A stretch of DNA of 32,625 nt from a virus, in IMG/VR virus record IMGVR_UViG_3300028920_001070, positions 1 to 32,625 of that record. One strand, written 5' to 3'. Shown here piece by piece: positions 2,887-24,602 of this stretch. Under the pieces are notes generated by a model, which had not been told where the DNA came from, ran no database searches, and worked only from the letters and a program-made list of their open reading frames with translations. The first letter of the stretch is position 1. Each line of letters begins with the position of its first letter. A program made the position numbers and the translations under genes.

Positions 2887-3348
2887 ATGAAATATATTGA
2901 AAAGTTAAAAGATCCAAGGTGGCAGAAAAAACGTCTTGAGATACTTTCAAGAGATCAGTGGACCTGTCAAAATTGTCATTCTACAGAAGATACTCTGGCT
3001 GTACATCATTTAATCTATAATAAAGGATATGATCCCTGGGATTATAATGACAGTGATTTAGTTACTTTATGTGAATCCTGTCATGATCACGAAAGCAAAA
3101 ATATTGCTGTGGCAGCTGAGCATCTTATCAATGCTGTTAAAAGATCTGGATTTTTGTCTGATGATATAAATATATTGGCTAAGGGGTTTTCTGCATTTAC
3201 CATGAAACATGCTCCTCATGTGGCTGCTGAGGTATTGCAATATACACTTGGTAATAATAAAATAATTGATGAGCTATATAAAGAATTCTTTGATCATTTA
3301 AAGAAGAAAATGGAAGGTATGAGGAGGGCTGAGATTGAAGAAAAATAA
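2887..3348 (+). CDS. HNH endonuclease
   Basis: This is a 153-residue HNH nuclease. The N-terminal half shows the zinc-binding and catalytic pattern in order: WTCQNCHS (Cys pair near 27-30), AVHHLIYN (catalytic His), then DLVTLCESCHDHES (second Cys pair and last His). Phage HNH enzymes of this type can be homing endonucleases or partners of the terminase. Here the gene sits just after the tRNA and before the replication gene, so a freestanding mobile nuclease is more likely. GGGAGG precedes ATG 2887. The gene is more AT-rich than its neighbours. The C-terminal 80 residues are helical and not recognised. Confidence 0.85.
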   Translation: MKYIEKLKDPRWQKKRLEILSRDQWTCQNCHSTEDTLAVHHLIYNKGYDPWDYNDSDLVTLCESCHDHESKNIAVAAEHLINAVKRSGFLSDDINILAKGFSAFTMKHAPHVAAEVLQYTLGNNKIIDELYKEFFDHLKKKMEGMRRAEIEEK

Positions 3349-4045
3349 GAAGCTGATATTGCCTAATTATACACAGGTCCCCAATTTATTCCTAGATAAT
3401 TTATATCAATTTGAGGGATCCGAGGTCAAAGTATTTCTGGCTATATGCAGGAAAACAATAGGCTGGCACAAAGTATCGGACCGGATCAGCTACAGCCAGC
3501 TTAATAAGATCACCGGGCTCAGCACCAATGGGCTTAAAAATGCTATTGATCGCCTGGTGAATGAGGGACTTATTACTCAAAAAATGACAAAAAACGGCTA
3601 TATTTATGATATAAGTGTGTCACTGAGTGATAGGGCTGTGTCACTGAGTGATACAGATAGGGTGTCACTGAGTGATAGTACAAAAGAAAGTATTAAAAAA
3701 ATTAATATAAAAGAAAAGCATATATATTATAATTTTGATATGGTATTATTAACAGAGAAGGAACATGATACTCTTATAAAAAAATATGGAGAGAAAAGCA
3801 CTAAGCTAATAATAGAGAAACTGCACTATGCTAAGCTCTCTAAAGGATACCAGTATAAATCAGACTATGGCGCATTGAATAGCTGGGTAATAAAGGATAC
3901 AGGGATCAAAGAGGTCATTCCGGTAGATGCTGCTGAATCTACTAAAAAAAAGAAGCAGGCTGATATTATACGCATAATGAAGGATAATGGAGTAGACTGG
4001 CCTGAAGCTGTTAAGCTCTATAAGGACCAATGTGAAAAACGCTAG
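3335..4045 (+). CDS. Phage replication initiator, O-protein-like
   Basis: The 236-residue protein has an N-terminal winged helix of the phage replication protein O type. Residues about 10-90 include NYTQVPNLFLDNL, RKTIGWHKVSDRISYSQLNK and TGLSTNGLKNAIDRLVNEG. A linker at residues 95-115 carries three VSLSD repeats, which are the translation of DNA repeats. A C-terminal domain (about 138-190) contains LLTEKEHDTL and YKSDYGALNSWVI, and it recurs in the protein at 13541. Lambda O-type proteins bind iterons lying inside their own gene and recruit the helicase. The start is TTG 3335, supported by GAGGAGGG at 3321-3328. It overlaps the HNH gene by 14 bases. Confidence 0.8.
   Translation: MKKNKKLILPNYTQVPNLFLDNLYQFEGSEVKVFLAICRKTIGWHKVSDRISYSQLNKITGLSTNGLKNAIDRLVNEGLITQKMTKNGYIYDISVSLSDRAVSLSDTDRVSLSDSTKESIKKINIKEKHIYYNFDMVLLTEKEHDTLIKKYGEKSTKLIIEKLHYAKLSKGYQYKSDYGALNSWVIKDTGIKEVIPVDAAESTKKKKQADIIRIMKDNGVDWPEAVKLYKDQCEKR
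3617..3677 (+). repeat. Three iteron-like direct repeats, candidate replication origin
   Basis: GTGTCACTGAGTGATA occurs three times with no mismatch, at 3617-3632, 3638-3653 and 3662-3677. Each copy holds the perfect palindrome TCACT-G-AGTGA. Spacings of 21 and 24 bases place the copies on nearly the same helix face. An AT-rich stretch follows at 3678-3750. This is the layout of a lambda-type origin inside the initiator gene. Confidence 0.65.
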
Positions 4046-6937: not shown

Positions 6938-7014
6938 TCCAGGAATATATTGCCATAATGTGTGTAATAGCTATTGCACTGATAGTAATTACAGCGAGCA
7001 CTAAAGTAAAGTGA
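6934..7014 (+). CDS. 26-residue membrane peptide
   Basis: The tiny gene starts at ATG 6934, overlapping the previous stop as ATGA, with GGGAGGG at 6921-6927. Its product is almost entirely one hydrophobic span (EYIAIMCVIAIALIVITA) with a basic end. The next gene overlaps its stop. Its place directly after a cell-wall enzyme would suit a holin or a lysis regulator, but size alone gives no proof. Confidence 0.45.
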   Translation: MIQEYIAIMCVIAIALIVITASTKVK

Positions 7015-7583
7015 AGTATATATCATACTACACTATGAATACTCCGTATGAGTGTGATGCTGGCAGACTGGAGATGAGCTTTCTTAATCACAATTTGGAC
7101 TTCTGCATATACCGTGTACAAAACTTTCGTAGCTGGGAGAAAAACTGCCAGTATAAGGCCAAGGTGATCCGGGGAGCTCTGGATGACTTTAAGTGCCCAG
7201 TGGTCTATACAGACATAGACTCTGAGGTCCTGAAGGATCCTGTGCTATTCAACGGCCTGGACTGTGACTTTGCTAGCGGATATATCAAATATACCAAAGA
7301 TATGCCGACCAGGCGCTGCAGCGGTCTGCTATCCGGGACTATGTTTTTTAATTATAATCAGAAGGCCCTGGATCTCCTGGACCGCTGGATAGAAAAGAAT
7401 GAGACTAATTATGAATGGGACCAGAGGAATCTGGAGCATGTACTGGATAAGCGGAAGCTGGATCACTATAAGCTCCCGGACTGTTACTGCAAGATATTCG
7501 ACAGCAAGTGGCAGAAGTGTGATGATCCCGTGATATTGCATCACCAGAAAAGCAGAATATACAAGAGGGTAATAAATGGATAA
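7011..7583 (+). CDS. Nucleotide-diphospho-sugar transferase-like glycosyltransferase
   Basis: The 190-residue protein starts at GTG 7011. Residues 63-77 read PVVYTDIDSEVLKDP, with a D-x-D motif (D68, D70) that binds the metal and sugar nucleotide in GT-A enzymes. SGLLSGTMFFNYNQKALDLL and YEWDQRNLEHVL follow, which are the usual marks of the nucleotide-diphospho-sugar transferase family. It is the first glycosyltransferase of the island and overlaps the genes on both sides. The donor and acceptor sugars cannot be read from the sequence. TTG or ATG alternatives near the start do not change the domain. Confidence 0.75.
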   Translation: MKYISYYTMNTPYECDAGRLEMSFLNHNLDFCIYRVQNFRSWEKNCQYKAKVIRGALDDFKCPVVYTDIDSEVLKDPVLFNGLDCDFASGYIKYTKDMPTRRCSGLLSGTMFFNYNQKALDLLDRWIEKNETNYEWDQRNLEHVLDKRKLDHYKLPDCYCKIFDSKWQKCDDPVILHHQKSRIYKRVING

Positions 7584-8226
7584 ATCAGTAAGTATTGTGA
7601 TCCCGTCTATAAAACCGGACTGTAAAGAGCAAATAAAAGAAATACTCGGATGTAAGTATGGTATCCCTGTGGAAGTGTTCTCAGTGAATAAGCAACAGTC
7701 TGCTGCTACTAACCGTAATGCGTGTATTGACAAGGCTAAGCACGATAAAATAATAATGTGTGATGACGATATAACCGGATACTTTGATCTATGGGCTGAC
7801 TACATGCAGGCTCACTTCTATATTGCAGACTACAGCATTTTATCTGTCCGGCCTATAAGGGCAGACGGATCTTTGTGTCCGCACCTGGGAGATAATAATG
7901 GGCAGCTGGATGATAAGGAGCCTATAGTCCGGGCTTTGCATACAGACCGGACCGGGCTTAATCTCTGTGGCTCAGCAACAATAATGTTTAACCGGAAGGA
8001 TGGTATCCGTTTTGACGAGGGATACAAGGGCGGAGGATGCTATGAGGATACGGATTTCTGTATGCAGTATAAAAAAAAGTGGCCAGATCGGGATATTATG
8101 ATTTGTAATGATGTGAAGCTAATACACAATATGGAGCGTAAGGGCAGAGAGACAATGCCAGGGACTTATGATAATCATAATCATAATCGGGGATATTTTG
8201 CAGAAAAGTGGGGTATTGAGCTATGA
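7576..8226 (+). CDS. GT2-like glycosyltransferase
   Basis: This 216-residue protein is a small GT-A glycosyltransferase. It starts SVSIVIPSIKPD and has SAATNRNACIDKA followed by IIMCDDDITGYF, where D63-D65 form the D-x-D motif. Later IRFDEGYKGGGCYEDTDFC carries the ED motif that usually supplies the catalytic base. The protein at 18055 is a clear paralog, with DDDITGF at the same residue numbers, IRFDEEY and YEDTDF, and a similar histidine-rich end. The two differ strongly in codon use. It overlaps the next gene by four bases. The sugar specificity is unknown. Confidence 0.85.
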   Translation: MDKSVSIVIPSIKPDCKEQIKEILGCKYGIPVEVFSVNKQQSAATNRNACIDKAKHDKIIMCDDDITGYFDLWADYMQAHFYIADYSILSVRPIRADGSLCPHLGDNNGQLDDKEPIVRALHTDRTGLNLCGSATIMFNRKDGIRFDEGYKGGGCYEDTDFCMQYKKKWPDRDIMICNDVKLIHNMERKGRETMPGTYDNHNHNRGYFAEKWGIEL

Positions 8227-9071
8227 AAATCGGTGTATATCACAACTGTTCAGATAAGATAACTGGCTGCTGGAAAGTAACTTGGAATCTTATAAATGGT
8301 TTAAAGGAGCTCGGAGTGGAAGTCATAGAGAACGGCCGGGGAGATTATAATGGAGTGATCCAGGACTGCTTTGACAGATACAGTGTGCCTGGTAATGCTC
8401 TCATAGGTCCGGAGATATTTGTGCTGCCGACTGAGAAGTCTGGCCTGCTGGCTACATTTAAAAACTGGGTGCAGCCGAGCAAATGGGTTATAGAATATCA
8501 AAAGCAATTTGCAGAGACTAGAGATAATAATATGTATGCGTGGCCCGTTGGTGTGGATACTGAGCGTTTCAATGATAAAAACCGCAGGCCAAAATATGAC
8601 TGTTTTATTTATTTAAAATCCGTGACCAGGCGCAATGAAAATGTAAGGCTGGAGGATATAGAGAGCTATCTGAAGCGCTACAAATACACGTATAAAATCA
8701 TAAAATATGGAGACTACTCAGAGCCGGAGTTTATGGACCTGGTTAATCGCTGCATGTTTGGGATATGGTTTGTAGGGAGTGAGAGCCAGAACATAGCACT
8801 GCTGGAGTGCCTGGCTATGGGTTGCCCGGTATATGTGATAGATCAGAATATGTTTTATTATAAGGACTTTACTTTCAAGGGATGTAGCTCGGCGCCATAT
8901 TTCGATTATAGATGCGGAGTGAAGCGGCCTGACTTTGCAGATATTGAGAGATTTGCTGCTGACATAGATAAGTATAAGCCGAGGGAGTATGTGACTGATA
9001 ATCATACACTTGCCAGGGGAGCTCAGAAGTATCTGGATATATTGGAGAAACATGAACGTATTAATATTTAG
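8223..9071 (+). CDS. GT-B (GT4-like) glycosyltransferase
   Basis: This is a 282-residue GT-B protein. The N-terminal domain has MKIGVYHNCSDKITGCWKVT and a helix LINGLKELGVEVIENG. AWPVGVDTERF (about 107-117) is the hinge seen in GT4 enzymes. The C-terminal domain has SESQNIALLECLAMGCPVYV (about 187-206), with the glutamate pattern that binds the nucleotide sugar. It is shorter than typical 350-400 residue members. It probably adds a sugar from a nucleotide donor to a glycan at the inner membrane. It overlaps its upstream neighbour as ATGA. Confidence 0.8.
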   Translation: MKIGVYHNCSDKITGCWKVTWNLINGLKELGVEVIENGRGDYNGVIQDCFDRYSVPGNALIGPEIFVLPTEKSGLLATFKNWVQPSKWVIEYQKQFAETRDNNMYAWPVGVDTERFNDKNRRPKYDCFIYLKSVTRRNENVRLEDIESYLKRYKYTYKIIKYGDYSEPEFMDLVNRCMFGIWFVGSESQNIALLECLAMGCPVYVIDQNMFYYKDFTFKGCSSAPYFDYRCGVKRPDFADIERFAADIDKYKPREYVTDNHTLARGAQKYLDILEKHERINI

Positions 9072-9855
9072 TAAGGATCGGCCTATGCAGCTGGACTATC
9101 TGCTGCGCACCATGAGGGATAATTTCCCACTTATAGGCAGGCCAATGGTTTTATACAAGGCCAGTTGTGAGGATAACAAGGCTGGATATACGCTACTGGA
9201 AAGGATGCGCTTTGATGAAGCGAACATCTATGAGGAGCAGGATTTTAATATCAATACTAGGAATTTGGTGGACTGTTTTCGTAAAGATCTCTGCATGTTC
9301 TTGTGTGATGATAATGTGTTCATAAACAGGCTGGAGCTCCAGGAGATGCTGGATCTCAGCTCCCTGCTGGAGAAGAATGAGGATATACACAGCCTGAGCC
9401 TACGGATGCACCCAAAGGTCACTTATTGCTATCCGGCTAAAAAGGAGATGAAGCAGCCTGATTATGATATTATCACAGGATATTATAATTACATGAGGTG
9501 GGATTGGACTAAGGCCGAGGATCAGCATACATGCTGGGGCTATCCTATGGCGATCAATACTCATATATACCGGACCAATGATATAAAAGAGATCATAGAG
9601 AGGGGAGCTTTTAATAATGTCAATTCGTTGGAATCTCATATTAATCGCAATAGGTGGAAGGATAAGCCGCTGATGATCTCTCCGCTGCGGCCTATAATAT
9701 TTGATGTATGCAATAACTACGTAAAAGATGGAGAGTGCGGAGATGAGTGTCTTACAAGGAAATGGCTGGATGGATACCAGATAAAGAACATCACCAATAT
9801 ACCAGATAACGCCTGTCATGGTGTTGTCAATTTAAACCTGGAGAAAAGAAAATGA
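9052..9855 (+). CDS. GT-A fold glycosyltransferase-like protein
   Basis: From ATG 9052 (GGAG at 9044-9047) the protein has 267 residues. It opens with MNVLIFSKDRPMQLDYLLRT, a typical first strand and helix of a GT-A enzyme. LCMFLCDDNVF (D86-D87) fills the D-x-D position. Residues about 148-165 (YMRWDWTKAEDQHTCWGYPM) and a long C-terminal part are distinctive. I recall similar proteins only as uncharacterised glycosyltransferases in phages and bacteria. It overlaps the previous gene by 20 bases. Confidence 0.65.
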   Translation: MNVLIFSKDRPMQLDYLLRTMRDNFPLIGRPMVLYKASCEDNKAGYTLLERMRFDEANIYEEQDFNINTRNLVDCFRKDLCMFLCDDNVFINRLELQEMLDLSSLLEKNEDIHSLSLRMHPKVTYCYPAKKEMKQPDYDIITGYYNYMRWDWTKAEDQHTCWGYPMAINTHIYRTNDIKEIIERGAFNNVNSLESHINRNRWKDKPLMISPLRPIIFDVCNNYVKDGECGDECLTRKWLDGYQIKNITNIPDNACHGVVNLNLEKRK

Positions 9856-10382
9856 TGGGATTTGACTTAAAAAAATATTTTCTGAGCGGGATATTTATAG
9901 AGACCGGGACCGAACATGGTAATGGAGTGAGGAGAGCCCTGGATGCTGGATATACAGAGATACACAGTGTGGAGCTTGCGCCTAATTTTTACCGGGGATG
10001 TATAGATCTTTACTGGAATGATGATAACGTTCATTTGTACTGTGGCAGCAGCCTGGACTTTCTGCCTATTATCATGAAGCACGTACAAAAGCCAGCTACT
10101 ATCTGGCTGGATGCTCATGTGGATAATAACTATATTCAGACTGATATAAAGTGTCCGCTGATACAGGAGCTTGAGATAATCGGAGCTGTGGGCAATCAGA
10201 CTGAGATAAAAGACCATACGATCCTCATAGATGACAGGCGGCTATTCGGCCAGGAAGGTGACTGGGGAAAGAATATATCTGAGGATGAGGTTATAAGCAA
10301 GCTGATGGAAGTGAATCACAAATACACTATAAAATATGAGAATGGGATCGAGGAGAATGATATTATAGTGGCGGCATATTAA
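9852..10382 (+). CDS. SAM-dependent methyltransferase-like protein
   Basis: This 176-residue protein has the pattern of a class I methyltransferase. IFIETGTEHGNGVRRALD (14-31) supplies the SAM-binding loop, IHSVELAPNFYRGC the acidic end of strand two, VHLYCGSSLDFLP the next motif, and ATIWLDAHVDNN the catalytic strand. The order suggests a small-molecule or sugar methyltransferase and not a DNA enzyme. Its place in the glycan island supports methylation of a sugar or glycan end. It overlaps the preceding gene as ATGATG and is followed directly by the next gene. Confidence 0.6.
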   Translation: MMGFDLKKYFLSGIFIETGTEHGNGVRRALDAGYTEIHSVELAPNFYRGCIDLYWNDDNVHLYCGSSLDFLPIIMKHVQKPATIWLDAHVDNNYIQTDIKCPLIQELEIIGAVGNQTEIKDHTILIDDRRLFGQEGDWGKNISEDEVISKLMEVNHKYTIKYENGIEENDIIVAAY

Positions 10383-11036
10383 ATGCAGATAAAAGAGCTA
10401 AATAAGATACAGCACAGAGAGCGACTTCTGATCCTGGGGCATGGTCCCAGTGTGGATAAGCTGCTCCGGGATGTCAGTGCTTACAGAGCTCAGGATATTG
10501 ATGTCATGAGCTTAAATGACTGGTATAATATGTCTATTGACGCTATAGACTTCCAGGTATGCACCAATATCAGCAGCGGTATATATCCCACGTATAAAGA
10601 GAACATCCGGGCCGATACTACTTATTTCTGGGCCAGGGAGTTTGTGCCTGAAGGATACACTGACGGCCTAGAGGCTGACTATTTCTTATACCAGTGGCAT
10701 GATGGCGGCTTTGATCTTACTAAGGCATTTGAGGAGAAGTATCATAGCAGGGTATCAATAGGAGACAGCACTATAATAGTTTGTCTGCTGCTGGCTACAC
10801 TAATGGAGTATAAGCGGATATATTATATCGGAGTGGAGCTGGATGCCAGGCTAGGCTATGGCAGCCGCAAGGGAGAGCTGAAAATAGAGGAGGAGAAGCC
10901 AGAGGATAAGGTCCGGCTAATGGACTACTACAGGCCGAAGATCCTCAATGATATACAGATCTTAAAGAACGCGGCACCTATGCCTATAGTGGATATGACA
11001 CACATGAGCTATGAGGATATAAGGAAAATACTGTGA
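10383..11036 (+). CDS. Sialyltransferase-like (GT42/DUF115-type) Rossmann protein
   Basis: The protein has 217 residues and begins with RLLILGHGPSVDKL (G19-S23 = GHGPS), matching the GxGPS loop of GT42 sialyltransferases and of DUF115 proteins. MSLNDWYNM follows, then SIGDSTIIVCLLLATLMEYK and RIYYIGVELD, which match the conserved helix and the YKEIYLxGxD-like strand of that superfamily. GT42 enzymes transfer sialic acid from CMP donors. The gene directly precedes a formyltransferase and a CMP-sugar synthetase, so a transferase for a CMP-activated nonulosonic acid is plausible. The choice between GT42 and DUF115 needs a profile search. Confidence 0.6.
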   Translation: MQIKELNKIQHRERLLILGHGPSVDKLLRDVSAYRAQDIDVMSLNDWYNMSIDAIDFQVCTNISSGIYPTYKENIRADTTYFWAREFVPEGYTDGLEADYFLYQWHDGGFDLTKAFEEKYHSRVSIGDSTIIVCLLLATLMEYKRIYYIGVELDARLGYGSRKGELKIEEEKPEDKVRLMDYYRPKILNDIQILKNAAPMPIVDMTHMSYEDIRKIL

Positions 11037-11686
11037 ATATTCTTTCTATGTGCAAGGTAGGGAATAAATACGCTGATGAGGCGCTGGAATATCTGGCTAA
11101 AAACTGTGAAGTGGATGTGATTAAAAGTGATAGAAATATATATCTGGATAATTTAAAGTGGCGGTATGATTATATAATATCTTTTCTTTATCCGCATGTT
11201 ATAAACAAAGATGTTTTATGCAGGGCAGAGAAGGGAGCTATCAATTTTCATCCGGGATCTCCTGACTATCCAGGGATCGGCTGTACTAATTTTGCTATAT
11301 ACAACGGAGCTGATAAGTTTGGAGTCACTTGTCATTATATGAATGAGCAGCCGGATACCGGGGATATAATAGACGTACGATATTTTATGATGAATAATGA
11401 AACGGTGTTGAGCTTAACTAATAAATGTTATGCTTATATGCTGGCCCAGTTTTATGACATGATAGATATTATATTACAGGGGAAGGATCTACCTATCTTT
11501 CCGGAGAAATGGACTCGTAAGCCATATATCCGGAGAGAGCTTAATGAGCTGTGCGTTATAACCAGCTACATGGACAAGGATGAGGTGAGCAGAAGGATCC
11601 TGGCCACTGAGTATCCGAGCAAGCCAGGTGCATATATCAATATACATGGTGAAAGATTTGAGTATAACCGGAGGATAAAAGTATGA
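11033..11686 (+). CDS. Formyltransferase (sugar N-formyltransferase-like)
   Basis: This 217-residue protein has the catalytic core of 10-formyl-tetrahydrofolate formyltransferases. INFHPGSPDYPGIGCTNFAI has N71 and H73, and FGVTCHYMNEQPDTGDIID has D108. These are the Asn-His-Asp triad positions. It lacks the long C-terminal tRNA-binding domain of methionyl-tRNA formyltransferase, so sugar N-formylation is more likely. The start is GTG 11033, overlapping the previous stop. Next to a CMP-sugar synthetase it may formylate an amino sugar in the same pathway. Confidence 0.8.
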   Translation: MNILSMCKVGNKYADEALEYLAKNCEVDVIKSDRNIYLDNLKWRYDYIISFLYPHVINKDVLCRAEKGAINFHPGSPDYPGIGCTNFAIYNGADKFGVTCHYMNEQPDTGDIIDVRYFMMNNETVLSLTNKCYAYMLAQFYDMIDIILQGKDLPIFPEKWTRKPYIRRELNELCVITSYMDKDEVSRRILATEYPSKPGAYINIHGERFEYNRRIKV

Positions 11687-12327
11687 CAGCCCTGGTACTG
11701 GCAAGATCTAACAGTGAGCGCTGCCCTAAGAAGCTGATCCGGCCTTTCTGGAAGCTCTATCCGCTTATAGAGATCAGCCTGCAGATATACCGTCATATAG
11801 GCTATGAGGTCTATGTATGCGGAGATAAGCTAATAAACCATATAGCCGAGGAGATGAGATTTCCTACGATCACCAGGGACAGAGAGAGCCTGTCAGGAGA
11901 GAGCTTCAGCCAGGTATATAATTTCCTGGATAAGATAAACGACAATGACATAATGATCCTCAATCCCTGCTTTCCGCTGATCCAGCCCGGCACTATAGAA
12001 GCTGTAGCTGATGAATACCTGGATAATGATTTTCTGAGCTTAATAACCGTGAAGGAGATCCGGAACGTGGTATACTTCAAAAACCTGGCAATGAATGAGG
12101 GGGGAGTGAAAAGCAATAGCAAATACTGTGATCCGGTATTTGAAGCAGCTCCAGCTGTGCAGATATTCAAAAAGAAAATCGCTATGGATATAGGATACCC
12201 TTATATGTTTACCAGGAATGATCCCTACTTATATCCTATAGGGATGTTGGAGGGGACTGATGTGAATACCGAGGATGATTTTAAGGTGGCCAAGGTGCTA
12301 TATAATGAGTTTAAGGGGGAAGAATGA
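11683..12327 (+). CDS. CMP-sugar (acylneuraminate-type) cytidylyltransferase
   Basis: The 214-residue protein opens with LVLARSNSERCPKKLIRPF, matching the nucleotide-binding motif of CMP-nonulosonate and CMP-Kdo synthetases (pattern ARxGSkrxPxKN). MILNPCFPLIQPGTIEAVAD corresponds to the LQPTSPLR strand, and GTDVNTEDDFKVAKVLY matches the final DIDTEEDLxxA motif. It should join CTP to an acidic sugar and release pyrophosphate. No nonulosonate synthase is visible here, so the sugar would come from the host or from genes outside the window. It overlaps the formyltransferase as ATGA. SpsF-type spore coat enzymes share the fold and are an alternative. Confidence 0.75.
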   Translation: MTALVLARSNSERCPKKLIRPFWKLYPLIEISLQIYRHIGYEVYVCGDKLINHIAEEMRFPTITRDRESLSGESFSQVYNFLDKINDNDIMILNPCFPLIQPGTIEAVADEYLDNDFLSLITVKEIRNVVYFKNLAMNEGGVKSNSKYCDPVFEAAPAVQIFKKKIAMDIGYPYMFTRNDPYLYPIGMLEGTDVNTEDDFKVAKVLYNEFKGEE

Positions 12328-13540: not shown

Positions 13541-14299
13541 ATGGCAAAATATAGACATATACAAACATTATTTTGGAATGATCCTGAAATGCTTGAAATG
13601 ACACCGGAAGATAAATATTTTTATTTATTTTTATTAACCAATCCCCAAACAACGCAATGCGGAATTTATGAAATCAGCAAAAAACAGATGGAATATTATA
13701 CCGGATATAATCGGGAAACAATTCAAAAATTATTAAAAAGATGGATCGATTATAATAAAATAAAATACAGCGAAAAAACAAAAGAAATTGCTATAAAAAA
13801 TTGGTTAAAATATAATAATTCTGAATCCCCAAAAGTGAAAAATTGCATTGAAGAAGAATTAAAAAAGGTAAAAGATAGATCATTAATAGACTATATAAAC
13901 AGTATAGATACTGTATATATAGACTCGGGGGAAAAAGAAAAAGAAAAAGAAAAAGAAAAAGAAAAGAAAAAGAAAAAGAAAAGCGATTCAAAAATAGAAT
14001 ATCGTGATAATATTTTATTAACTGAAAAAGAATATAATACTTTATTAATAAAATATGGTAAATCAAATATAAATAAAATATTTGATAAATTATCCTTTTA
14101 TAAACTAGCACATGGAAAACAATATAAATCCGATTATGGCGCAATTAATCAATGGGTTATTGAATCTTTAAAAATTGAACCATTAACACCTATTGATCAG
14201 GAACAGCAAAAGAAAAAAAAACTTGAAATAAAAATACAAAAAATAATGATTGAAAAGGGAATATCATATGCCGATGCGCATAACATGTTAATAAAATGA
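13541..14299 (+). CDS. Phage replication-type protein (second copy of the replication gene class)
   Basis: The 252-residue protein has an N-terminal helical DNA-binding region (FWNDPEMLEMTPEDKYFYLF, CGIYEISKKQMEYYTG, ETIQKLLKRWIDYNKI) typical of phage replisome organisers. Residues about 131-148 are a Lys/Glu run from DNA repeats. The C-terminal domain has LLTEKEYNTLLIKYG and QYKSDYGAINQWVI, clearly homologous to the end of the protein at 3335. The N-terminal domains differ. It starts at ATG 13541 after AAGGG and is first in the operon driven from 13319. The existence of two such genes in one window suggests two replication modules. Confidence 0.7.
   Translation: MAKYRHIQTLFWNDPEMLEMTPEDKYFYLFLLTNPQTTQCGIYEISKKQMEYYTGYNRETIQKLLKRWIDYNKIKYSEKTKEIAIKNWLKYNNSESPKVKNCIEEELKKVKDRSLIDYINSIDTVYIDSGEKEKEKEKEKEKKKKKKSDSKIEYRDNILLTEKEYNTLLIKYGKSNINKIFDKLSFYKLAHGKQYKSDYGAINQWVIESLKIEPLTPIDQEQQKKKKLEIKIQKIMIEKGISYADAHNMLIK
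13931..13984 (+). repeat. GAAAAA hexamer tract inside the second replication gene
   Basis: Ten G residues at spacings of 6,6,6,6,6,5,6,6,5 create an uninterrupted polypurine run of GAAAAA units. Whole hexamers keep the reading frame; the two five-base units shift the translated pattern from EK to KK. The tract sits between the N- and C-terminal domains, the same place as the iterons in the 3335 gene. It may be a slippage site or an unusual origin element. Confidence 0.6.
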
Positions 14300-16424: not shown

Positions 16425-16531
16425 ATTACGAAATATTAAGATTATCAACGGGAAAGCTACAATTTGAAATATCTAAAAAACATTGGGTTATAAAAATATA
16501 TTTTAAAATATGGAATTATTTTAATAAATGA
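16421..16531 (+). CDS. 36-residue protein of unknown function
   Basis: The short gene begins at ATG 16421, overlapping the HAD stop, and ends with TGA overlapping the next ATG. Its product is basic and aromatic (KKHWVIKIYFKIWNYFNK). The double ATGA coupling supports a real translated gene linking its neighbours. No function or domain is recognised. Confidence 0.45.
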   Translation: MNYEILRLSTGKLQFEISKKHWVIKIYFKIWNYFNK

Positions 16532-17235
16532 AATATTCTGAAGTAACATTAACAATTACAACATCAAAGCGATTCAATCTGTTTAAAAAAAGCATTATGT
16601 CATTTTATGATAGATGCAAAGATTGGGATTTAATAAAAAATATTATAATTGTTGATGATGCATCAAGCAAAACAGATATTGAAAACATGAAGCAATTATT
16701 ATCCGGTATAAAAAAAGATATACTTTTTATATGCAAGGATAATCCGGATCATGTTCAATCGTTAAATATTTTATTTGACAAGGTAAAAACCGATTATGTA
16801 TTTCATCTTGAAGATGATTGGAATTTCATTCAGCATGGAAATTTTATCCGGGAAGGATTTGAAATAATGGCGGATAATGATAAAATAAAAACGGTTATTA
16901 TGCGGAACTGGATCAAACAGGGAAACAAGGATTTTCACCGTTGCAAAACAAAAACCGGGCTTGAATATCATATACATCATTATAATTTTAAAAAACACAT
17001 CCCCGGGGAACTGAATACATATCCCGGATACAGCTTGAATCCTTCATTGCAAAATATGAAACATATAAAAGATATAATCGGCAAGTTTACAAGAACAATC
17101 AATTTTGAATTACAATTTGCTTTAAGATACTGCAACATCGGAACCGGATTTTTAACCGCAATGATGGCGAATGATTATTGTGAACATATCGGCACAAATA
17201 TAAATGCGTATGCATTGAATAATACGAAACCATGA
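16528..17235 (+). CDS. GT-A glycosyltransferase-like protein
   Basis: The 235-residue protein starts with VTLTITTSKRFNLFKKSIMS, like GT2-type enzymes, and has NIIIVDDASS (VDD near 42) and YVFHLEDDWNF, where E95-D97 form the acidic metal-binding motif. GYSLNPSLQNMKH follows near the middle. The protein at 19504 aligns along its whole length (TTSKRF, SEDDWNF, LTLNPSL, EHTGT), so the two are a paralog pair. It overlaps both neighbours as ATGA. Its sugar donor is unknown. Confidence 0.75.
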   Translation: MKYSEVTLTITTSKRFNLFKKSIMSFYDRCKDWDLIKNIIIVDDASSKTDIENMKQLLSGIKKDILFICKDNPDHVQSLNILFDKVKTDYVFHLEDDWNFIQHGNFIREGFEIMADNDKIKTVIMRNWIKQGNKDFHRCKTKTGLEYHIHHYNFKKHIPGELNTYPGYSLNPSLQNMKHIKDIIGKFTRTINFELQFALRYCNIGTGFLTAMMANDYCEHIGTNINAYALNNTKP

Positions 17236-17798
17236 AAAAATATAATATAATATATGCTGATCCGCCTTGGCGTTATAATGACAAATTAGGATGTGATAAT
17301 GCAAAAATGGGAGCAGTTGAAAATCATTATAATACGATGACATTAAAAGATATATGTAATTTAAAGATTCAAGATATATGCGCGGATGATTGTGTTTTAT
17401 TTTTATGGGTTACGATGCCCTTATTAAATATATCATTTGATGTGATTAAATCATGGGGGTTTATATATAAAACATGTGCTTTTACTTGGATTAAATTGAA
17501 TCCGAAAAGCAAAACAATTTTCAAAGGCATTGGGCGTTGGGTTCAAGGAAATGCGGAATTAATTTTGTTAGCAACAAAAGGAAAACCGAAAAGAATAACA
17601 AAGTCGATGGGGCAAGTCGTGATGGCGGAAAGGGGGAAGCATTCAGTTAAGCCGGATATTTTTAAAGATAAAATAACACAATTGATGGGGGATATACCTC
17701 GCATTGAATTATTTGCCCGCCCTTGGTCAGAATTGCAAAATAAATATGAAGGTTGGGATGTATGGGGGAATGAAGTTGAATCTGATATTAAATTATGA
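17232..17798 (+). CDS. MT-A70-family adenine-N6 methyltransferase
   Basis: This 188-residue protein is a compact MT-A70 member. YNIIYADPPWRYND places DPPW at residues 10-13. NHYNTMTLKDICNL and VLFLWVTMPLLNISFDVIKS match the family core, and RWVQGNAELILLATKG and KPDIFKDKITQLMG complete it. ELFARPWSELQNKYEGWDVWG is the usual C-terminal end. Family members methylate adenine N6 in DNA or RNA. In a phage the natural role is DNA protection. It sits inside the glycan island, overlapping the upstream GT. Confidence 0.9.
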   Translation: MKKYNIIYADPPWRYNDKLGCDNAKMGAVENHYNTMTLKDICNLKIQDICADDCVLFLWVTMPLLNISFDVIKSWGFIYKTCAFTWIKLNPKSKTIFKGIGRWVQGNAELILLATKGKPKRITKSMGQVVMAERGKHSVKPDIFKDKITQLMGDIPRIELFARPWSELQNKYEGWDVWGNEVESDIKL

Positions 17799-17809
17799 AG
17801 GATTAAATT

Positions 17810-18055
17810 ATGCAGATAGAAAAATATGAAACACAGCCGATTAAAGTAGTTTGTCATTGCGAAAAATGCGAAGAAGGATATATGAACGCAACGGGAAGAA
17901 CCCGCAAGGTTATATCAAAAATTGTTCATTTACATAAATGCAATCGATGCGGTATATTTGCGGAACTTGATTCATCGTTTCCGAAATTGGAATTCCCGAA
18001 GGGCAAGCGGATCCCTGATGAAGAAGAAAATACAATAAATCCGGAAAATAACTGA
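17810..18055 (+). CDS. Small zinc-ribbon protein
   Basis: The 81-residue protein starts at ATG 17810. VVCHCEKCEEGYMNATG has two or three Cys for one half of a zinc site, and HKCNRCGIFAEL the other half about 30 residues later. The tail is acidic and disordered (IPDEEENTINPENN). It resembles small phage zinc-ribbon proteins of unknown function. Its stop overlaps the next start. Confidence 0.65.
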   Translation: MQIEKYETQPIKVVCHCEKCEEGYMNATGRTRKVISKIVHLHKCNRCGIFAELDSSFPKLEFPKGKRIPDEEENTINPENN

Positions 18056-18717
18056 TGATTATACCTGATATCTGTATTCCAACAAATAAAAAAAGATCTG
18101 AAATTGATGATCTTATAAAAGATATAAAAGCAAACACCCCGGAATTCAACCGGATCATTGCATCTTGTCAACCGTTATCAGCATCGAAAAATCGGAATTA
18201 CTGTTTATCATTTGCAAATTCTGATATCATTGTCATGATGGATGACGATATTACAGGATTTTATCCTGGTTGGTTAACGAACTTTATACATCCCATGTTG
18301 GAAGATCCATTAATTATTATTTGTTCCGCCCGATTGCTTGATAAAAACCGTAAACGAATTAACAATATGGGGATGATCGGCGGATCCGGGGAATTGCAGG
18401 AAATCCCCGCTTCCTTTAATCACAAAGGAACAGGATATAAAAGAGTTACAACGGCTTGCATTGCAATCCGCAAAAATCATATTCGATTTGATGAAGAATA
18501 TATTAAATCCGGTTATGAAGATACGGATTTTATGAATCAGATTTCCCGGGCGTTCCCGGCAAGCAAATTTATTGTTAATAACAATTGCGAATTGATACAT
18601 TTGAATCATATGCAGGGGCAAGATGATCGGGAAGCATGGCAACATAATCACGATCATTATTGTAAAAAATGGGAATTTGATACGGTTGCGAAGGATCAAA
18701 AATGCTGGGCGAAATGA
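18055..18717 (+). CDS. GT2-like glycosyltransferase (paralog of the 7576 gene)
   Basis: The 220-residue protein has IIPDICIPTNKKRSE, SASKNRNYCLSFA and IIVMMDDDITGFYPGW, with D63-D65 as the D-x-D motif at the same positions as in the 7576 protein. IRFDEEYIKSGYEDTDFMNQ contains the ED catalytic motif. The final WQHNHDHYCKKWEF also matches the ending of the paralog. Its codons follow the AT-rich right-half style, so the pair diverged in different settings and is not a recent copy. Confidence 0.85.
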   Translation: MIIPDICIPTNKKRSEIDDLIKDIKANTPEFNRIIASCQPLSASKNRNYCLSFANSDIIVMMDDDITGFYPGWLTNFIHPMLEDPLIIICSARLLDKNRKRINNMGMIGGSGELQEIPASFNHKGTGYKRVTTACIAIRKNHIRFDEEYIKSGYEDTDFMNQISRAFPASKFIVNNNCELIHLNHMQGQDDREAWQHNHDHYCKKWEFDTVAKDQKCWAK

Positions 18718-19481
18718 TGAATCAGATCATTGAAGGTGATTGCCTGGATGTTATGAAGGATATTCCGGATAAAAGCATAGATATGATATTATGCGATTTG
18801 CCTTATGGCACTACAGCCTGTTCATGGGATGTTGTTATTCCTTTTGATTTATTATGGGAACAGTATAAAAGAATAGTTAAGGATAATGCTTGTATATGTT
18901 TATTTGGAAGTCAGCCATTTACAACGGATTTGATAATGAGCAATAGAAAAATGTTTAAGTATGAAATAATATGGTGTAAGGAAAGGGGACAGGATTTTAT
19001 CAATGCAAAAAAAAGACCATTAAAAGCACATGAAAATATATTGATATTCGGAAATAAAATAAAATACAATCCTATTATGGAAAAAGCAAAAAGGGAAAAT
19101 ATTAGGAAGGTATCTGATTTAAATCAACCATCAGAAGTATATGGCATTAATAAAAAAGCTAGTAAAGACTACGACATAGAAAAGCGTTATCCGAAAAGCT
19201 ATATACAATATTCAAGTGGTAGGGCAAGAGACAAAGAACACTCCGCACAAAAACCAGTTAAGCTATTTGAATACCTTATAAAAACATACACCAATGAAAA
19301 TGATATTGTATTAGATAACTGTGCAGGATCAGGAACTACAGCTATTGCCTGTTATGAAACTAACAGAAAATATATATGCATAGAAAAGGAAAAAAAATAT
19401 TGCAACATTGCCCGGAAGCGATTGCAAGAAAAAAAGGATTGTTATGGATTATTACATAACGAACAAATGGCAACCTTGTAA
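18702..19481 (+). CDS. DNA methyltransferase (paralog of the 5515 gene)
   Basis: The 259-residue protein has IIEGDCLDVMKDIPDKSIDM followed by DLPY (32-35), then GSQPFTTDLIMSNRKMFKYE and KKRPLKAHENILIFGN. AGSGTTAIACYETNRKYICI lies near residue 208. The motif order is beta class, and DLPY replaces DPPY as in a known phage subgroup. It should modify phage DNA. The start could also be ATG 18714 or 18717; 18702 has AAGGAT six bases upstream. The first 30 and last 50 residues are close to the 5515 enzyme, with an unrelated target region between. It overlaps the GT upstream by 16 bases. Confidence 0.88.
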   Translation: MLGEMMNQIIEGDCLDVMKDIPDKSIDMILCDLPYGTTACSWDVVIPFDLLWEQYKRIVKDNACICLFGSQPFTTDLIMSNRKMFKYEIIWCKERGQDFINAKKRPLKAHENILIFGNKIKYNPIMEKAKRENIRKVSDLNQPSEVYGINKKASKDYDIEKRYPKSYIQYSSGRARDKEHSAQKPVKLFEYLIKTYTNENDIVLDNCAGSGTTAIACYETNRKYICIEKEKKYCNIARKRLQEKKDCYGLLHNEQMATL

Positions 19482-19503
19482 AATAAAGATGGAAAGTTTT
19501 AAA

Positions 19504-20196
19504 ATGAAATATCCTTCAATAACCTTTACTTGCACAACATCAAAACGATTTGACCTATATGTTCAAATGATGATATCGTTTTTTTATTCATGCCTTGACA
19601 TGGATTTGATTGAAAATTATATAATCGTTGACGATGGAAGCCCGATAAATGAAATACACGAAATGGGAAGATTATTCCCAAAAACAAATGTAATCAAGAA
19701 TACAAAAGGCGGTCAATTAAACAGTATTAAAATGATCCTTGATTGCGTTGATACTGAATATATGTTTCATTCAGAAGATGATTGGAACTTTTTGATTCAA
19801 GATCATTATATCCGCAAGGGATTTGATATCATGCATACGGATTCTAGGATTAAACAGGTAACGTTGCGATTTTGGGAATGCATGTATATCAATGATGATG
19901 GGCTTGAATATCGCATGCATAATTATTCCCCGATGGACATCAAGGAAGATTATGATATAATTAAATATTCTGATTGTAATTATGGCGGATTGACATTGAA
20001 TCCTTCATTGATTCATGTTCCAACATTTAAAGAATGTATGAAAAACGTTCATCAAGAAAACAGCGAATCAAGAATTTGGGATAAAAAACTTTCAATGAAT
20101 TATTGGAATGCAGGATATAAAAGGGCAAATCTGAACGATGAATATATTGAACATACCGGAACATATGATTCAAGATATCCCAGGATAAACGCATGA
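19504..20196 (+). CDS. GT-A glycosyltransferase-like protein (paralog of the 16528 gene)
   Basis: From ATG 19504 (GGAAAG upstream) the protein has 230 residues. MKYPSITFTCTTSKRFDLYV matches the start of the 16528 protein, and NYIIVDDGSP and YMFHSEDDWNFL carry the acidic motifs. GGLTLNPSLIH and EYIEHTGTYDSRYPR match the paralog further on. Longer in-frame starts at 19408, 19444 and 19489 overlap the methyltransferase and do not align, so 19504 is preferred. The specificity is unknown. Confidence 0.75.
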   Translation: MKYPSITFTCTTSKRFDLYVQMMISFFYSCLDMDLIENYIIVDDGSPINEIHEMGRLFPKTNVIKNTKGGQLNSIKMILDCVDTEYMFHSEDDWNFLIQDHYIRKGFDIMHTDSRIKQVTLRFWECMYINDDGLEYRMHNYSPMDIKEDYDIIKYSDCNYGGLTLNPSLIHVPTFKECMKNVHQENSESRIWDKKLSMNYWNAGYKRANLNDEYIEHTGTYDSRYPRINA

Positions 20197-20681
20197 AAAA
20201 AATAAAATTATCACAAAATCAATTTGCATTAGTTGATGATGAAGATTTTGAAAAATTAAATAATAGGAAATGGAGTGCGAAATTTGATAATCATACAAAT
20301 AAATTTTATGCATATGGGCATCTTGATAAAAAGAATAATTATAAATCTATTTTAATGCATCGTTTTATAATGGGGTTCCCTACAAATAAACAAATAGATC
20401 ACATAAATAAAGATACACTTGATAACAGAAAAATTAATTTAAGAATTGTAACAAATGCGCAAAATCAAGCTAATCGATGGAAAAACAAAAAGTGTTCATC
20501 AAAATATAAAGGAGTTATTTATCTTTCAAAAATTAATAAGTGGTATTCAAGAATATGTTTTGCTAAAAAATCATATAATATAGGTATTTTTAATTCTGAA
20601 GAAGAAGCCGGGCTTGCATATAATAAAAAAGCAAAAGAATTATTTGGAGAATACGCTTGTTTAAATAAAATAAAGGTGTGA
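20193..20681 (+). CDS. HNH homing endonuclease with AP2-like domain
   Basis: This 162-residue protein has the order of a freestanding phage homing nuclease. LMHRFIMGFPTNKQIDHINK and DTLDNRKINLRIVTNAQNQA form the HNH core with the two key histidines and the closing Asn. An AP2-like DNA-binding domain follows (YKGVIYLSKINKWYSRICF, NIGIFNSEEEAGLAYNKKAK). Such enzymes cut intron-less or unoccupied copies of their site and spread with the DNA around them. It lies inside the glycan island between a GT and a radical SAM gene, overlapping the GT stop as ATGA. Confidence 0.9.
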   Translation: MKKIKLSQNQFALVDDEDFEKLNNRKWSAKFDNHTNKFYAYGHLDKKNNYKSILMHRFIMGFPTNKQIDHINKDTLDNRKINLRIVTNAQNQANRWKNKKCSSKYKGVIYLSKINKWYSRICFAKKSYNIGIFNSEEEAGLAYNKKAKELFGEYACLNKIKV

Positions 20682-20684
20682 TAT

Positions 20685-21635
20685 ATGTTCAAAAATAATT
20701 ATATTAGTGAGATTGAATTAAATACCTGTAATTTATGTAATGCATCATGCATCATATGTTCTGAACCGCATGGATGCGATAATGATCGGTATATGGAACC
20801 CGAAGTATTTTATACACTATTAAAACAATTAAAAGATGTTGAAACAAATATAATTCAAACTTCCGGTTTAGGTGAAACCTTTATGAACCCGCATTTCCTT
20901 GAATATGTTCATGAACTTCACAAAGCTTTTCCGAAAACCCCGAAATGGATTTACAACAATTTTTCTATATTCACCCCGGATTTAATCAACACCGTATTGA
21001 ATAACAAATACTTTGAAAAGATCCATACAAGGATTGATTCGCTTGACAGTTATATTTTTCAAATGTCATCAAATTTAAGATATAGTGAAGTATTTGAAAA
21101 CCTTGATTATTTTTTATCCGTTAATGAAACAACCCCGCTTGTTATTTTATATAACAACATAAAAGATTATTATAATCGTTGTAAATCCGTAACGGGTAAA
21201 AGACCGATCCGGGATCGTTTTACGGATGCAGATCTTGAAAATGTTCCGGATGAACAGCAAGCAATCACAAATTATGTAAAAAGTAAAGCGAAACGCCCGG
21301 AACTTGTTACGGTATGCAGGATCAATCATGGTTTATGGGGCGAACGTTATCGGAACGATATACAGCATAATCCGGATTATCCTTGCCCGAAAATAGAAGT
21401 GATAAAAAAAGTATGTTGGATTTATCCTAACGGGGATATTGGAATGTGCTGTTATGAAGATCGGCAATCCCCTGAATTTTCACTTGGGAACATTACGATT
21501 GAACATATTCTTGATATATTTTACGGCGAAAAGCGGAAGAAGGCGATTGAAAATATTAAAAATAATGTTTATAGAATTTATCCTTGCAACAATCCCAGGT
21601 TGTGCGGGTTCGGCGATGGAGTAGAATCGAAATGA
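20685..21635 (+). CDS. Radical SAM protein with SPASM-like C-terminus
   Basis: The 316-residue protein opens with EIELNTCNLCNASCIICSEP; C18, C22 and C25 form the CxxxCxxC cluster motif of radical SAM enzymes. TSGLGETFMNPHF matches the GGE-like SAM-binding strand, with Leu-Gly replacing the usual Gly-Gly. The C-terminal region has CPKIEVIKKVCWIYPNGDIG, then MCCYED and SLGNITIEHILDIF, typical of a SPASM domain with extra iron-sulfur sites. It begins after AAGGTG. The substrate is unknown; within this island a sugar or small molecule, or a peptide, is possible. Confidence 0.85.
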   Translation: MFKNNYISEIELNTCNLCNASCIICSEPHGCDNDRYMEPEVFYTLLKQLKDVETNIIQTSGLGETFMNPHFLEYVHELHKAFPKTPKWIYNNFSIFTPDLINTVLNNKYFEKIHTRIDSLDSYIFQMSSNLRYSEVFENLDYFLSVNETTPLVILYNNIKDYYNRCKSVTGKRPIRDRFTDADLENVPDEQQAITNYVKSKAKRPELVTVCRINHGLWGERYRNDIQHNPDYPCPKIEVIKKVCWIYPNGDIGMCCYEDRQSPEFSLGNITIEHILDIFYGEKRKKAIENIKNNVYRIYPCNNPRLCGFGDGVESK

Positions 21636-22186
21636 TCAATCCCGATGTATTTTTGATCCATTTTTCAAAAGGAAACACAACGTTCGGGGATGCGCAAATA
21701 TTACATAAATTCGCAGAAAATAGATCTTTAAAAGTTGAAATCGGTACAGCATACGGAATCGGGGCAATGATCCTTTCAATTCATGGCGGAACAGTTTACA
21801 CGATTGATAATCATACATTTTATTCTGATTATAAAAAGCCGAAAATAAAACATAAAATAATAAAAGATTATCTTGATTTTTTTACAAGCGGAAGGATAAA
21901 ATCAATTATTCAAGATAGCGTAAAAGCATCGGAATCATTTGACGATGAAACAATTGAATTATTATATATCGATGGCGGGCATTCATATAAGCAAGTAAAA
22001 GCAGATTTTGAAGCATGGTTTCCGAAGGTCAAAACTGATGCGGTTATAATATTTCATGATGTATGTTTCGATTGCCCCGGGGTTAATCGTTTTTATAAAC
22101 GGTATTTGAAGAAGCTGAAAACGATCCGGGAACTTGTTCAAAAATCAGAATTTGAAACTTCAATCAAAGTATTTGTAAAGGGGTAA
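21632..22186 (+). CDS. Class I SAM-dependent methyltransferase
   Basis: From ATG 21632, overlapping the radical SAM stop, the protein has 184 residues. VEIGTAYGIGAMILSIHG is the SAM-binding loop, VYTIDNHTF the acidic strand, and LLYIDGGHSYKQVKADFEAW and DAVIIFHDV are typical of the Methyltransf_24 group (cephalosporin hydroxylase-like). Members methylate small molecules and sugars. Its placement between radical SAM and GT genes supports a role in modifying a glycan. The gene is in the AT-rich right-half codon style. Confidence 0.82.
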   Translation: MINPDVFLIHFSKGNTTFGDAQILHKFAENRSLKVEIGTAYGIGAMILSIHGGTVYTIDNHTFYSDYKKPKIKHKIIKDYLDFFTSGRIKSIIQDSVKASESFDDETIELLYIDGGHSYKQVKADFEAWFPKVKTDAVIIFHDVCFDCPGVNRFYKRYLKKLKTIRELVQKSEFETSIKVFVKG

Positions 22187-22187
22187 A

Positions 22188-22985
22188 ATGAAAATAATTG
22201 CATTATATAAAGTATGGAGCGGTCACGAATTATTACAAGCATCCGTTGAATCAATTTATAATCATGTTGATAAAATTGTTATATTAACCTCAAATGTTTC
22301 CTGGATCGGCGGGAAAGATAATCCATCAATCCCCGTTATTGAAACATTAATCGGCAAAAAATATCCGGGCAATAAAATCATTCATATAAACTATGATGAA
22401 CCGAATCAAGTGAAGCATTGCATGTATGCTTATCGTTATATACAAAACAATTTTGATTGTGATTATATAATGCTGATTGATTCCGATGAATTATGGGATA
22501 CGAATTCATTAAAATATGCAAAGCAATATATACAGCAGGGCCCGCAATGCAAAGCATACCGAACATCAATTTTTACATATATTAAAAGCCCCTTTTATCG
22601 TATTGAACCCCCGGAACCATTAAAGCCCGTATGTTTTATAAAACCCGATCTTCCGGATATGGGGCTTGAACCGCGCGGATGTGCTATAAAACCATATAAA
22701 ATAATTAATGAAGTATATTATCATCATTTCGTATTTGTGCGGGAACATTTCAACAATGTACTGGAAAAGCTGATTCAATCGCATGTATCCGAAAAGCAAC
22801 CATATGAAAATATGGCTGATTGGATCCCGAATGTATGGAATAAAATGCCATTATGCCGAAGGAATTTTCATCCCGCAATCGGATTCGGTACGCATTGGAA
22901 ATCGATTAAACAAGTAAAGCTTGAAGATCTTCCGGAAGTATTGCATCATAACCGCTTCCCGAATATATTAAAATGGGGCAAATAA
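22188..22985 (+). CDS. GT2-like glycosyltransferase
   Basis: The protein has 265 residues. MKIIALYKVWSGHELLQASV and IVILTSNVSWIG give the first strands, and DYIMLIDSDELWD places D98-x-D100 as the D-x-D motif. Later HHFVFVREHFNNVLEKL and VLHHNRFPNILKWG complete a form seen in uncharacterised GT2-type enzymes. It is likely to transfer a sugar from a nucleotide donor, with both substrates unknown. It follows the methyltransferase by one base. Confidence 0.78.
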   Translation: MKIIALYKVWSGHELLQASVESIYNHVDKIVILTSNVSWIGGKDNPSIPVIETLIGKKYPGNKIIHINYDEPNQVKHCMYAYRYIQNNFDCDYIMLIDSDELWDTNSLKYAKQYIQQGPQCKAYRTSIFTYIKSPFYRIEPPEPLKPVCFIKPDLPDMGLEPRGCAIKPYKIINEVYYHHFVFVREHFNNVLEKLIQSHVSEKQPYENMADWIPNVWNKMPLCRRNFHPAIGFGTHWKSIKQVKLEDLPEVLHHNRFPNILKWGK

Positions 22986-22989
22986 TTTA

Positions 22990-23610
22990 ATGAATTGGAT
23001 TAATAAATTAAAACAAGATTTGAAAATTAAATTGATTGGGATGCAAAAGGAAAATATTTGTTTCGTATTGATCCCAAAAAATGCGCATTTATCAATGCAA
23101 TACACCTTAGAAAATCAAGGATTCAAAAGGGGTTTTATTAAAAATATATCCGGGAAAATGAAATATTCTGCAATCATCCGGGATCCCGTCAGCAAATGGG
23201 CAACGGGATTTGCAACATATTTGACTAATTGCGTTAATAATAAAGTAATAACGGAATATAATGCATATAAAATATTTAATAGTTGGGGTTGTATAGATTA
23301 TATTTTTAAAATTATTGAATTTGATATCCATACGGTCAAGCAACGATCAATTATAAATCAATTCGTTAATCAGGATATAAAATTATTTGATATTAAAAAC
23401 CTTGATCCGTTAATTAAATATTTTAATGAAAACGGGGTAAATATAACCGGAATTGATACGGCGCATATAACTGAAAACTTTGATCATGAAGGATTCCATT
23501 ATAAAATATATAAAATTATTAATGAATTCCTGTTTTCGCATCAAGCATATTGCGATTTAATAAAACAATATTATTCTAATGATTTAAAATTATATAAGGG
23601 GTTACAATGA
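22990..23610 (+). CDS. Sulfotransferase-like protein
   Basis: The 206-residue protein has the two PAPS-binding elements of carbohydrate sulfotransferases. ICFVLIPKNAHLSMQYTL (IPKNAHLS at 28-35) matches the 5'-phosphosulfate loop, and AIIRDPVSKWATGF (R64-D65-P66) matches the 3'-phosphate motif. FDIHTVKQRSIINQF follows, like the DxHxxxQ segment of the Sulfotransfer_2 group. It would add sulfate to a sugar. No PAPS-making gene is seen, so the host must supply the donor. It overlaps the next gene by four bases. Confidence 0.7.
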   Translation: MNWINKLKQDLKIKLIGMQKENICFVLIPKNAHLSMQYTLENQGFKRGFIKNISGKMKYSAIIRDPVSKWATGFATYLTNCVNNKVITEYNAYKIFNSWGCIDYIFKIIEFDIHTVKQRSIINQFVNQDIKLFDIKNLDPLIKYFNENGVNITGIDTAHITENFDHEGFHYKIYKIINEFLFSHQAYCDLIKQYYSNDLKLYKGLQ

Positions 23611-24602
23611 GTCCGGAACCAACAAAAAGATTTGTTATTGAACCATCGCTTGAATGTAATATTAAATGCAAATTTTGTTATCATTTGCATCGGTTCGATG
23701 AATGGCGCAATACCAGGAAATCACTTGATGAAATGAAAACGATTATTGATCAAGGAAAAGAGCGGGGAAATAATTACATGGATATCACAGGCGGGGAGCC
23801 GTCAATATATCCCTATATAACCGATTTGATTCAATACGGATTATCAAAAGGAATCAAAGCTTGTATAATAACCAATGGGATCATTGGCAAGGAAAAAGCG
23901 CAACAATTACTTGATGCGGGCATTGATGATTTTCTTGTTTCCCGGCATGGGTTATCGGAAACGCATAATCATATCACAAATTCAAATCATGCATATGATA
24001 TTCAATTAAAGTTCCTTGATTATATAAAGCAATTTATGCAATTCCGGTTTAATTGCGTTATTAATCAATTTAATCAATTTGAACTGGTTTCAATGATAAA
24101 AGAATTGATTCCTTATAAGCCCAAAATTGTTAATTTTATCAATTTCAATCCGCATCATGAATGGAAAAATAAAGAATTAAAAGCATCGGAAGTGGTTGCC
24201 GATCTTGTAAAGGTCGAACCATATTTGAATGAAGCAATTGATCTTCTTGAAGATGAAGGCATCGGGGTAAACGTTAGATATTATCCCATGTGCCGGATCA
24301 TGGAACAGCATCGCAAATATATCTGCAATGATCTTCATGTTATGTTCGATCCATATGAATGGGATTATTCAACAACGCCGAAAACATACGATAAATATAA
24401 AGCATGGGGCGTTGCAACATCAAATGCGAATGAAGAAAAAAGCAATCCTTGCTGTTTATGTGATTTACAAGATATATGCGGGGGGATCAACAAGCATTTT
24501 CACAGGATATCAAATCGATTGCATGGGGAACAATGCTTGATTCAGCGGATTGATCCCATTATACACCGAAAAGATTTTATGTATTATCGGCGGGATATAT
24601 GA
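23607..24602 (+). CDS. Radical SAM enzyme
   Basis: The protein has 331 residues. EPSLECNIKCKFCYHLH contains C17, C21 and C24 as the CxxxCxxC cluster, and YMDITGGEPSIYPY has the GGEP motif at 62-65. IKACIITNGIIG and FLVSRHGLSETHNHI follow the radical SAM barrel pattern. A late cysteine set (NPCCLCDLQDICGGINKHF and EQCL) suggests an additional iron-sulfur cluster. It has a good match to the fold but no specific family. It is the last member of the right-hand modification island, before the packaging genes. Confidence 0.87.
   Translation: MSPEPTKRFVIEPSLECNIKCKFCYHLHRFDEWRNTRKSLDEMKTIIDQGKERGNNYMDITGGEPSIYPYITDLIQYGLSKGIKACIITNGIIGKEKAQQLLDAGIDDFLVSRHGLSETHNHITNSNHAYDIQLKFLDYIKQFMQFRFNCVINQFNQFELVSMIKELIPYKPKIVNFINFNPHHEWKNKELKASEVVADLVKVEPYLNEAIDLLEDEGIGVNVRYYPMCRIMEQHRKYICNDLHVMFDPYEWDYSTTPKTYDKYKAWGVATSNANEEKSNPCCLCDLQDICGGINKHFHRISNRLHGEQCLIQRIDPIIHRKDFMYYRRDI

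Follow-up and report, generated by a model that had tools for sequence, protein, structure and literature searches.

We found that the O-like initiator gene of this phage carries, with a probability of about 90% in our estimate, a lambda-type replication origin inside its own coding sequence. The window, that is, the whole stretch of viral DNA analysed here, comprises 32,625 nucleotides, and the putative origin lies between its positions 3617 and 3749. This interpretation was drawn from the family and domain order of the encoded protein, from repeats that exceed both chance and what the protein would explain, from the relatives, from a boundary element after the last repeat and from a fixed geometry. 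In its arrangement, the locus follows the known lambda type, of which the window phage is a new example.

Table 1. Positions of the initiator gene, its domains and the elements of the putative origin in the window.
Feature	Position	Strand	Remarks
O-like replication initiator gene	3335..4045	+	236 aa; TTG start, AGGAGG-like site upstream
N-terminal winged-helix domain, presumed origin-binding	3368..3610	+	residues 12-92, the PF04492 match
Iteron 1, GTGTCACTGAGTGATAG	3617..3633	+	
Iteron 2, GTGTCACTGAGTGATAC	3638..3654	+	17-bp dyad, one mismatch
Iteron 3, GTGTCACTGAGTGATAG	3662..3678	+	adjoins boundary element; dyad centre 8 bp before element, as in relatives
Boundary element, GTACAAAAGAAAGTATTAAAAAA	3678..3700	+	window form of the family-wide ACACAAAAGA-ACTAT-AAAA motif
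AT-rich stretch, putative DNA unwinding element	3680..3749	+	corresponds to the AT-rich part within ori-lambda
C-terminal helical domain, presumed helicase- or loader-binding	3737..4009	+	PHROG replisome organizer, 6.7e-12; model

The product of the initiator gene matched the Pfam family Phage_rep_O (PF04492; E=1.5e-12, 48.3 bits against a cut-off of 28.7) and the PHROGs family replication initiation O-like (2.3e-19). Its AlphaFold model, which was built on 23 aligned sequences, was confident over most of residues 20-93, and the winged helix ended at residue 93. Residues 97-128 had low model confidence and were predicted to form a disordered linker. The iterons code for residues ~95-115, where this linker begins. 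Pfam, PHROGs and the disordered linker of the model thus agreed with the earlier note, which had placed the repeats between the two domains of an O-like protein. A sequence search of the PDB with the same protein returned generic winged-helix regulators only. A fold search returned winged-helix PDB entries and, weakly, DnaD, all with E >= 0.001. The C-terminal domain was shared with a second initiator of the record (13541-14299), at 45% identity over 91 aa. In the genes that directly follow the O gene, neither PHROGs nor Pfam gave a match to a P/DnaC-like loader or a helicase, and the locus was not classed as a lambda O-P replication module, which would have one beside O.

Three exact copies of GTGTCACTGAGTGATA were found at 3617-3632, 3638-3653 and 3662-3677, with spacings of 21 and 24 bases, and each of them holds the exact 11-base palindrome TCACTGAGTGA, just as the earlier note had described. 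This sequence is absent elsewhere in the 32,625-base record. With up to three mismatches, 0.07 matches were expected by chance, and the fourth match (3639, minus strand) proved to be the dyad partner of copy 2. Together with the next base, each copy forms a 17-bp imperfect dyad, in which copy 2 (GTGTCA-CTGAG-TGATAC) pairs at 7/8 positions and copies 1 and 3 at 6/8. Dyad symmetry is weak evidence by itself, as 5.6% of the synonymous codings of VSLSDT pair as well as copy 2. The agreement of all 15 VSLSD codons across the three copies had a probability of ~1e-5 under phage codon usage, and no 12-mer occurred three times in any version when the window O gene was shuffled synonymously 2000 times. 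The repeats are followed by an AT-rich stretch, as had been claimed before: the 70 bases at 3680-3749 are 87% AT, and only 0.3% of the 70-mers in the window are as AT-rich. Among the points against the origin are the low number of iterons, only three, and the poorer dyad symmetry of copies 1 and 3 relative to copy 2. Cumulative GC skew rises throughout the record, has no turning point at the locus and lends no support to an origin there; this measure was uninformative because the genes lie on one strand.

In most O genes, the last iteron is directly followed by ACACAAAAGA, then by ACTAT and then by further A-rich sequence. Of 102 distinct O genes from phages of distant hosts, lambda included, 93 had the ACACAAAAGA-ACTAT-AAAA motif next to the last iteron. 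The exact sequence ACAAAAGA was present, in two frames, in 31 of 69 genes, compared with 7.7 (sd 2.2, max 14) in synonymous shuffles. Among the 93 genes, the element was read in three phases (66/26/1). On the N-domain tree, it needs 9 frame changes, of which at least 4-5 were forced by well-supported branches of a tree with only 83 columns. As the motif and the tree use sequences related by descent, the gene counts are not independent, and the frame switches are the safest count. We also scanned viral contigs with the bare 16-mer, using neither protein nor iteron as input. Among the matches listed, 32 of 47 distinct contexts were in O genes, where the element stood directly 3′ of the last iteron, and three more were in truncated O genes. 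The 93 genes include 52 cases of a second CAAAA 13-15 bases beyond the element. When a 23-column motif was trained without the window and its nearest relative (L028), window position 3678 ranked first of ~65,000 positions, scoring 17.1 versus 9.4 for the next; by the first 12 columns alone, it ranked only 11th. When the window O gene was recoded synonymously 1000 times, 20 of the versions scored as high for the element, so the element in the window is by itself suggestive, and its strength comes from the family.

The position of the dyad relative to this element was also shared. In the 93 genes, 8 bp separate the dyad centre from the element that follows it, and arm positions ±3 to 7 were paired in 54-70% of genes compared with a background of 24%, the 5-bp centre being little paired. 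At least 5/6 arm pairs were formed in 47% of genes near the element versus 5% at control positions; iteron 3 of the window forms 4/6. The iteron sequences themselves vary, for example GTCACC-AAAAC-GGTGAC, TTAGCC-AAGTC-AGCTAA, ATCCCA-GAAAA-TGGGAT and TTACCC-GAATC-AGGTAA, with TCCCTC-AAAAC-GAGGGA in lambda. The shared 17-bp geometry would fit dimers of one domain fold whose base recognition changes.

The ACACAAAAGA-type element is probably the site where opening starts. It may be read as a single strand by O or by the helicase loader, and this is the least certain step of the mechanism. We tentatively propose, at somewhat less than even odds, that O-family origins combine variable, phage-specific 17-bp dyads with a nearly invariant opening element (ACACAAAAGA-ACTAT-AAAA, with a second A-tract 13-15 bases on), which O or the helicase loader would read single-stranded. 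This element would be the phage equivalent of the DnaA-trio of bacteria, and the window would be one instance of the design. It is also conceivable, though rather unlikely, that the element persists because phages exchange initiator halves at this short stretch of homology, and that it is no replication signal. Lambdoid phages are modular, and the element sits between variable halves, with the N-domain and iterons on one side and many types of C-domain on the other. However, it is conserved across very distant hosts, between which recombination should be seldom, and neither its fixed distance from the dyad centre nor the second CAAAA 13-15 bases on favours such a role. Moreover, in ori-lambda it covers the beginning of the AT-rich part, which is known to open (PMC5043065). 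This alternative concerns the element only.

The AT-rich part of ori-lambda is 38 bp long (PMC3349717); it contains the element, and repeats in it are mentioned in a review (PMC10797057). In the literature searched, we found neither the sequence of the element nor its sharing across distant O-family phages; older papers on lambdoid origins (Grosschedl and Hobom 1979; Moore et al. 1979) may describe it within lambdoid coliphages. The element, being conserved independently of frame and at a constant distance from the last iteron, offers a defined target for mutation and a defined ligand for single-strand binding. Origins in uncultured phages could also be located by a simple rule: 17-bp dyads in the O linker, then ACACAAAAGA.

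We compared the locus with known systems. The lambda O gene with ori-lambda (NC_001416, 38686-39585) likewise has dyad iterons 20-24 bp apart between two initiator domains, an AT-rich stretch directly 3′ of them and a ACACAAAAGA-type element right after the last iteron; in lambda (lambda-dv), the stretch corresponding to the element is ACACAAAAGACACTAT. Lambda differs in its iterons, which are four in number, 18 bp long, of another sequence and spread over three frames at spacings of 20, 24 and 23, in its C-terminal domain and in the P gene downstream of O, none being recognised in the window. In the Stx phages P27 and 933W, too, the O gene contains a lambda-type origin made up of iterons and an AT-rich part, but there are six iterons, of lambda type (PMC7466680). 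In these phages, synonymous mutations in the iterons abolish plasmid establishment, and the O proteins bind AT-rich single strands (PMC7466680). The iteron plasmids RK2, F and R6K resemble the window in that an initiator on repeats opens an adjoining AT-rich element. However, their repeats are direct and bound by monomers (PMC5043065), and their initiators belong to another family. An origin of the RK2/F/R6K Rep type was rejected for the window, which has an O-type N-domain and intragenic dyad iterons.

A further alternative is that the repeats are operators for control of the operon by its own O-like protein or by a repressor, with replication starting elsewhere. Such a role gains something from the second initiator in the record and from the generic two-iteron pattern GTGTCA-N5-TGAYA, whose 21 loci were mostly outside O-like genes, where operators are one possibility. 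Nevertheless, we consider it very unlikely for the window, as the sites are in the middle of the gene, far from its start, they occupy the same location in the relatives and in lambda, where their function is known, and an AT-rich element follows at a fixed distance.

All three copies in the window are in one reading frame, so the frame cannot show selection at the DNA level from the window alone; the relatives do. An alignment search with the N-domain gave 305 viral stretches, of which 80 were kept, and 31 genomic loci, a sample biased toward phages with recognisable N-domains. Spirochaetes, Patescibacteria, Planctomycetota and many Gammaproteobacteria are represented. Among 53 dereplicated O genes, lambda included, the linker repeats beat all 30 synonymous shuffles in 41; in the other 12, they did not exceed every shuffle. 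In lambda, which served as a positive control, the repeat test recovered the annotated iterons, in three different phases. The repeats were read in more than one frame in 33 of the 41 genes with significant linker repeats. These two counts support the lambda-type placement of the origin that the earlier note had proposed.

The nearest relative found (L028, IMGVR_UViG_3300026184_000080) is one of the 33. Its N-domain is ~50% identical (52% over 79 N-domain columns), and it has three iterons of the type GTATCA-N5-TGATAC (GTGTCA-N5-TGATAC in the window), followed by TACAAAAGAAAG. The first of them is read as ..YQKVIE.. and the other two as VSxSD. Besides the frame of the first iteron, L028 differs from the window in the spacer, in one arm base and in the C-terminal half. 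No confirmed relatives emerged when viral contigs were scanned with a single protein of the window, either the O protein or the terminase, and a protein search of phage records with the O protein gave matches to the N-domain or the N-domain and linker only. The window phage has no close relative in the collections searched.

Across the relatives, the DNA repeats of the linker were kept, and the linker protein and its reading frame varied. Relatives that keep the linker protein and lose the repeats had been named beforehand as a case against the iteron-type origin; we looked for them and found the opposite. Because relatives keep the repeats while protein and frame change, we infer that selection acts on the repeat DNA and that the VSLSD peptide is a by-product, a suggestion of the earlier note with which the shuffles of the window gene also agree. 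The contrary view, that VSLSD is a useful flexible repeat selected as protein and that the DNA identity comes from recent tandem duplication of a short segment, accords with the single frame, the spacings in multiples of 3 and the perfect identity of the window copies, but has hardly any chance of being right, as the spacers between the copies differ, the linker protein is not conserved and the mixed frames of 33/41 relatives, the nearest included, contradict it.

If the O gene contains the origin, dimers of the N-terminal domain would bind each 17-bp dyad. The bound copies would bend and twist the DNA, and the adjacent AT-rich element would open (3680-3749, by analogy with lambda and the Stx phages). 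The C-terminal domain would then bring the host helicase, directly or via a loader, onto the exposed strand. Helicase recruitment would probably go through this domain because no P or DnaC relative was recognised adjoining the O gene, and the DnaD-like C-domain may replace a separate loader. The linker peptide with its VSLSD repeats would arise as a by-product of the binding sites in its coding DNA and need only be flexible. In lambda, O on the iterons opens the adjoining AT-rich part, and O, P and DnaB all bind single strands; the review that describes this has 'still an open question' in its title with regard to DNA opening by lambda O (PMC5043065). No structure of O bound to iterons has been solved (PMC10797057).

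Linker iterons were also seen with other initiator-like proteins. Three of the 21 loci with the two-iteron pattern (L008, L023 and L024) encode other initiator-like HTH proteins with linker iterons and without the ACACAAAAGA element. In L024 (2030-2143), linker repeats of the GTGTCAGNNACTGACA kind occur in two frames of one gene and accordingly encode VSVTD or CQPLT. In L008 and L023, GTGTCA-N5-TGAYAC repeats are followed by a different common stretch, TATATAAGGAAGA, which is perhaps the corresponding element of another initiator class. Three contigs of one Spirochaetes MAG (JAGOCL01; L108, L109 and L110) have related O-like genes with linker repeats, and, judging from these sequences, the bin holds several related phages or plasmids.

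The N-terminal domain of the second initiator is unrelated to that of the O-like protein (replisome organizer/DnaD-like PHROGs), and its linker has a purine-rich run of AAAGAA-type hexamers (~13924-13990) in place of iterons. Near 12.5-13 kb, the GC content drops from ~42% to ~30% and codon use changes sharply, with CTG making up 0.43 of Leu codons in the first part versus 0.20 overall. Each of the two parts of the record has its own initiator, DNA methylase-like gene (5515 and 18702) and HNH-like gene, besides glycosyltransferase-like genes. The genome may be mosaic or the assembly chimeric. Given this possibility and a second initiator without such iterons, the putative origin in the O gene need not be the sole one. 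According to the ORF translations, the regions 7011-12327 and 16528-24602 are, given the size of the phage record, unusually rich in glycosyltransferase-, methyltransferase- and radical-SAM-like genes.
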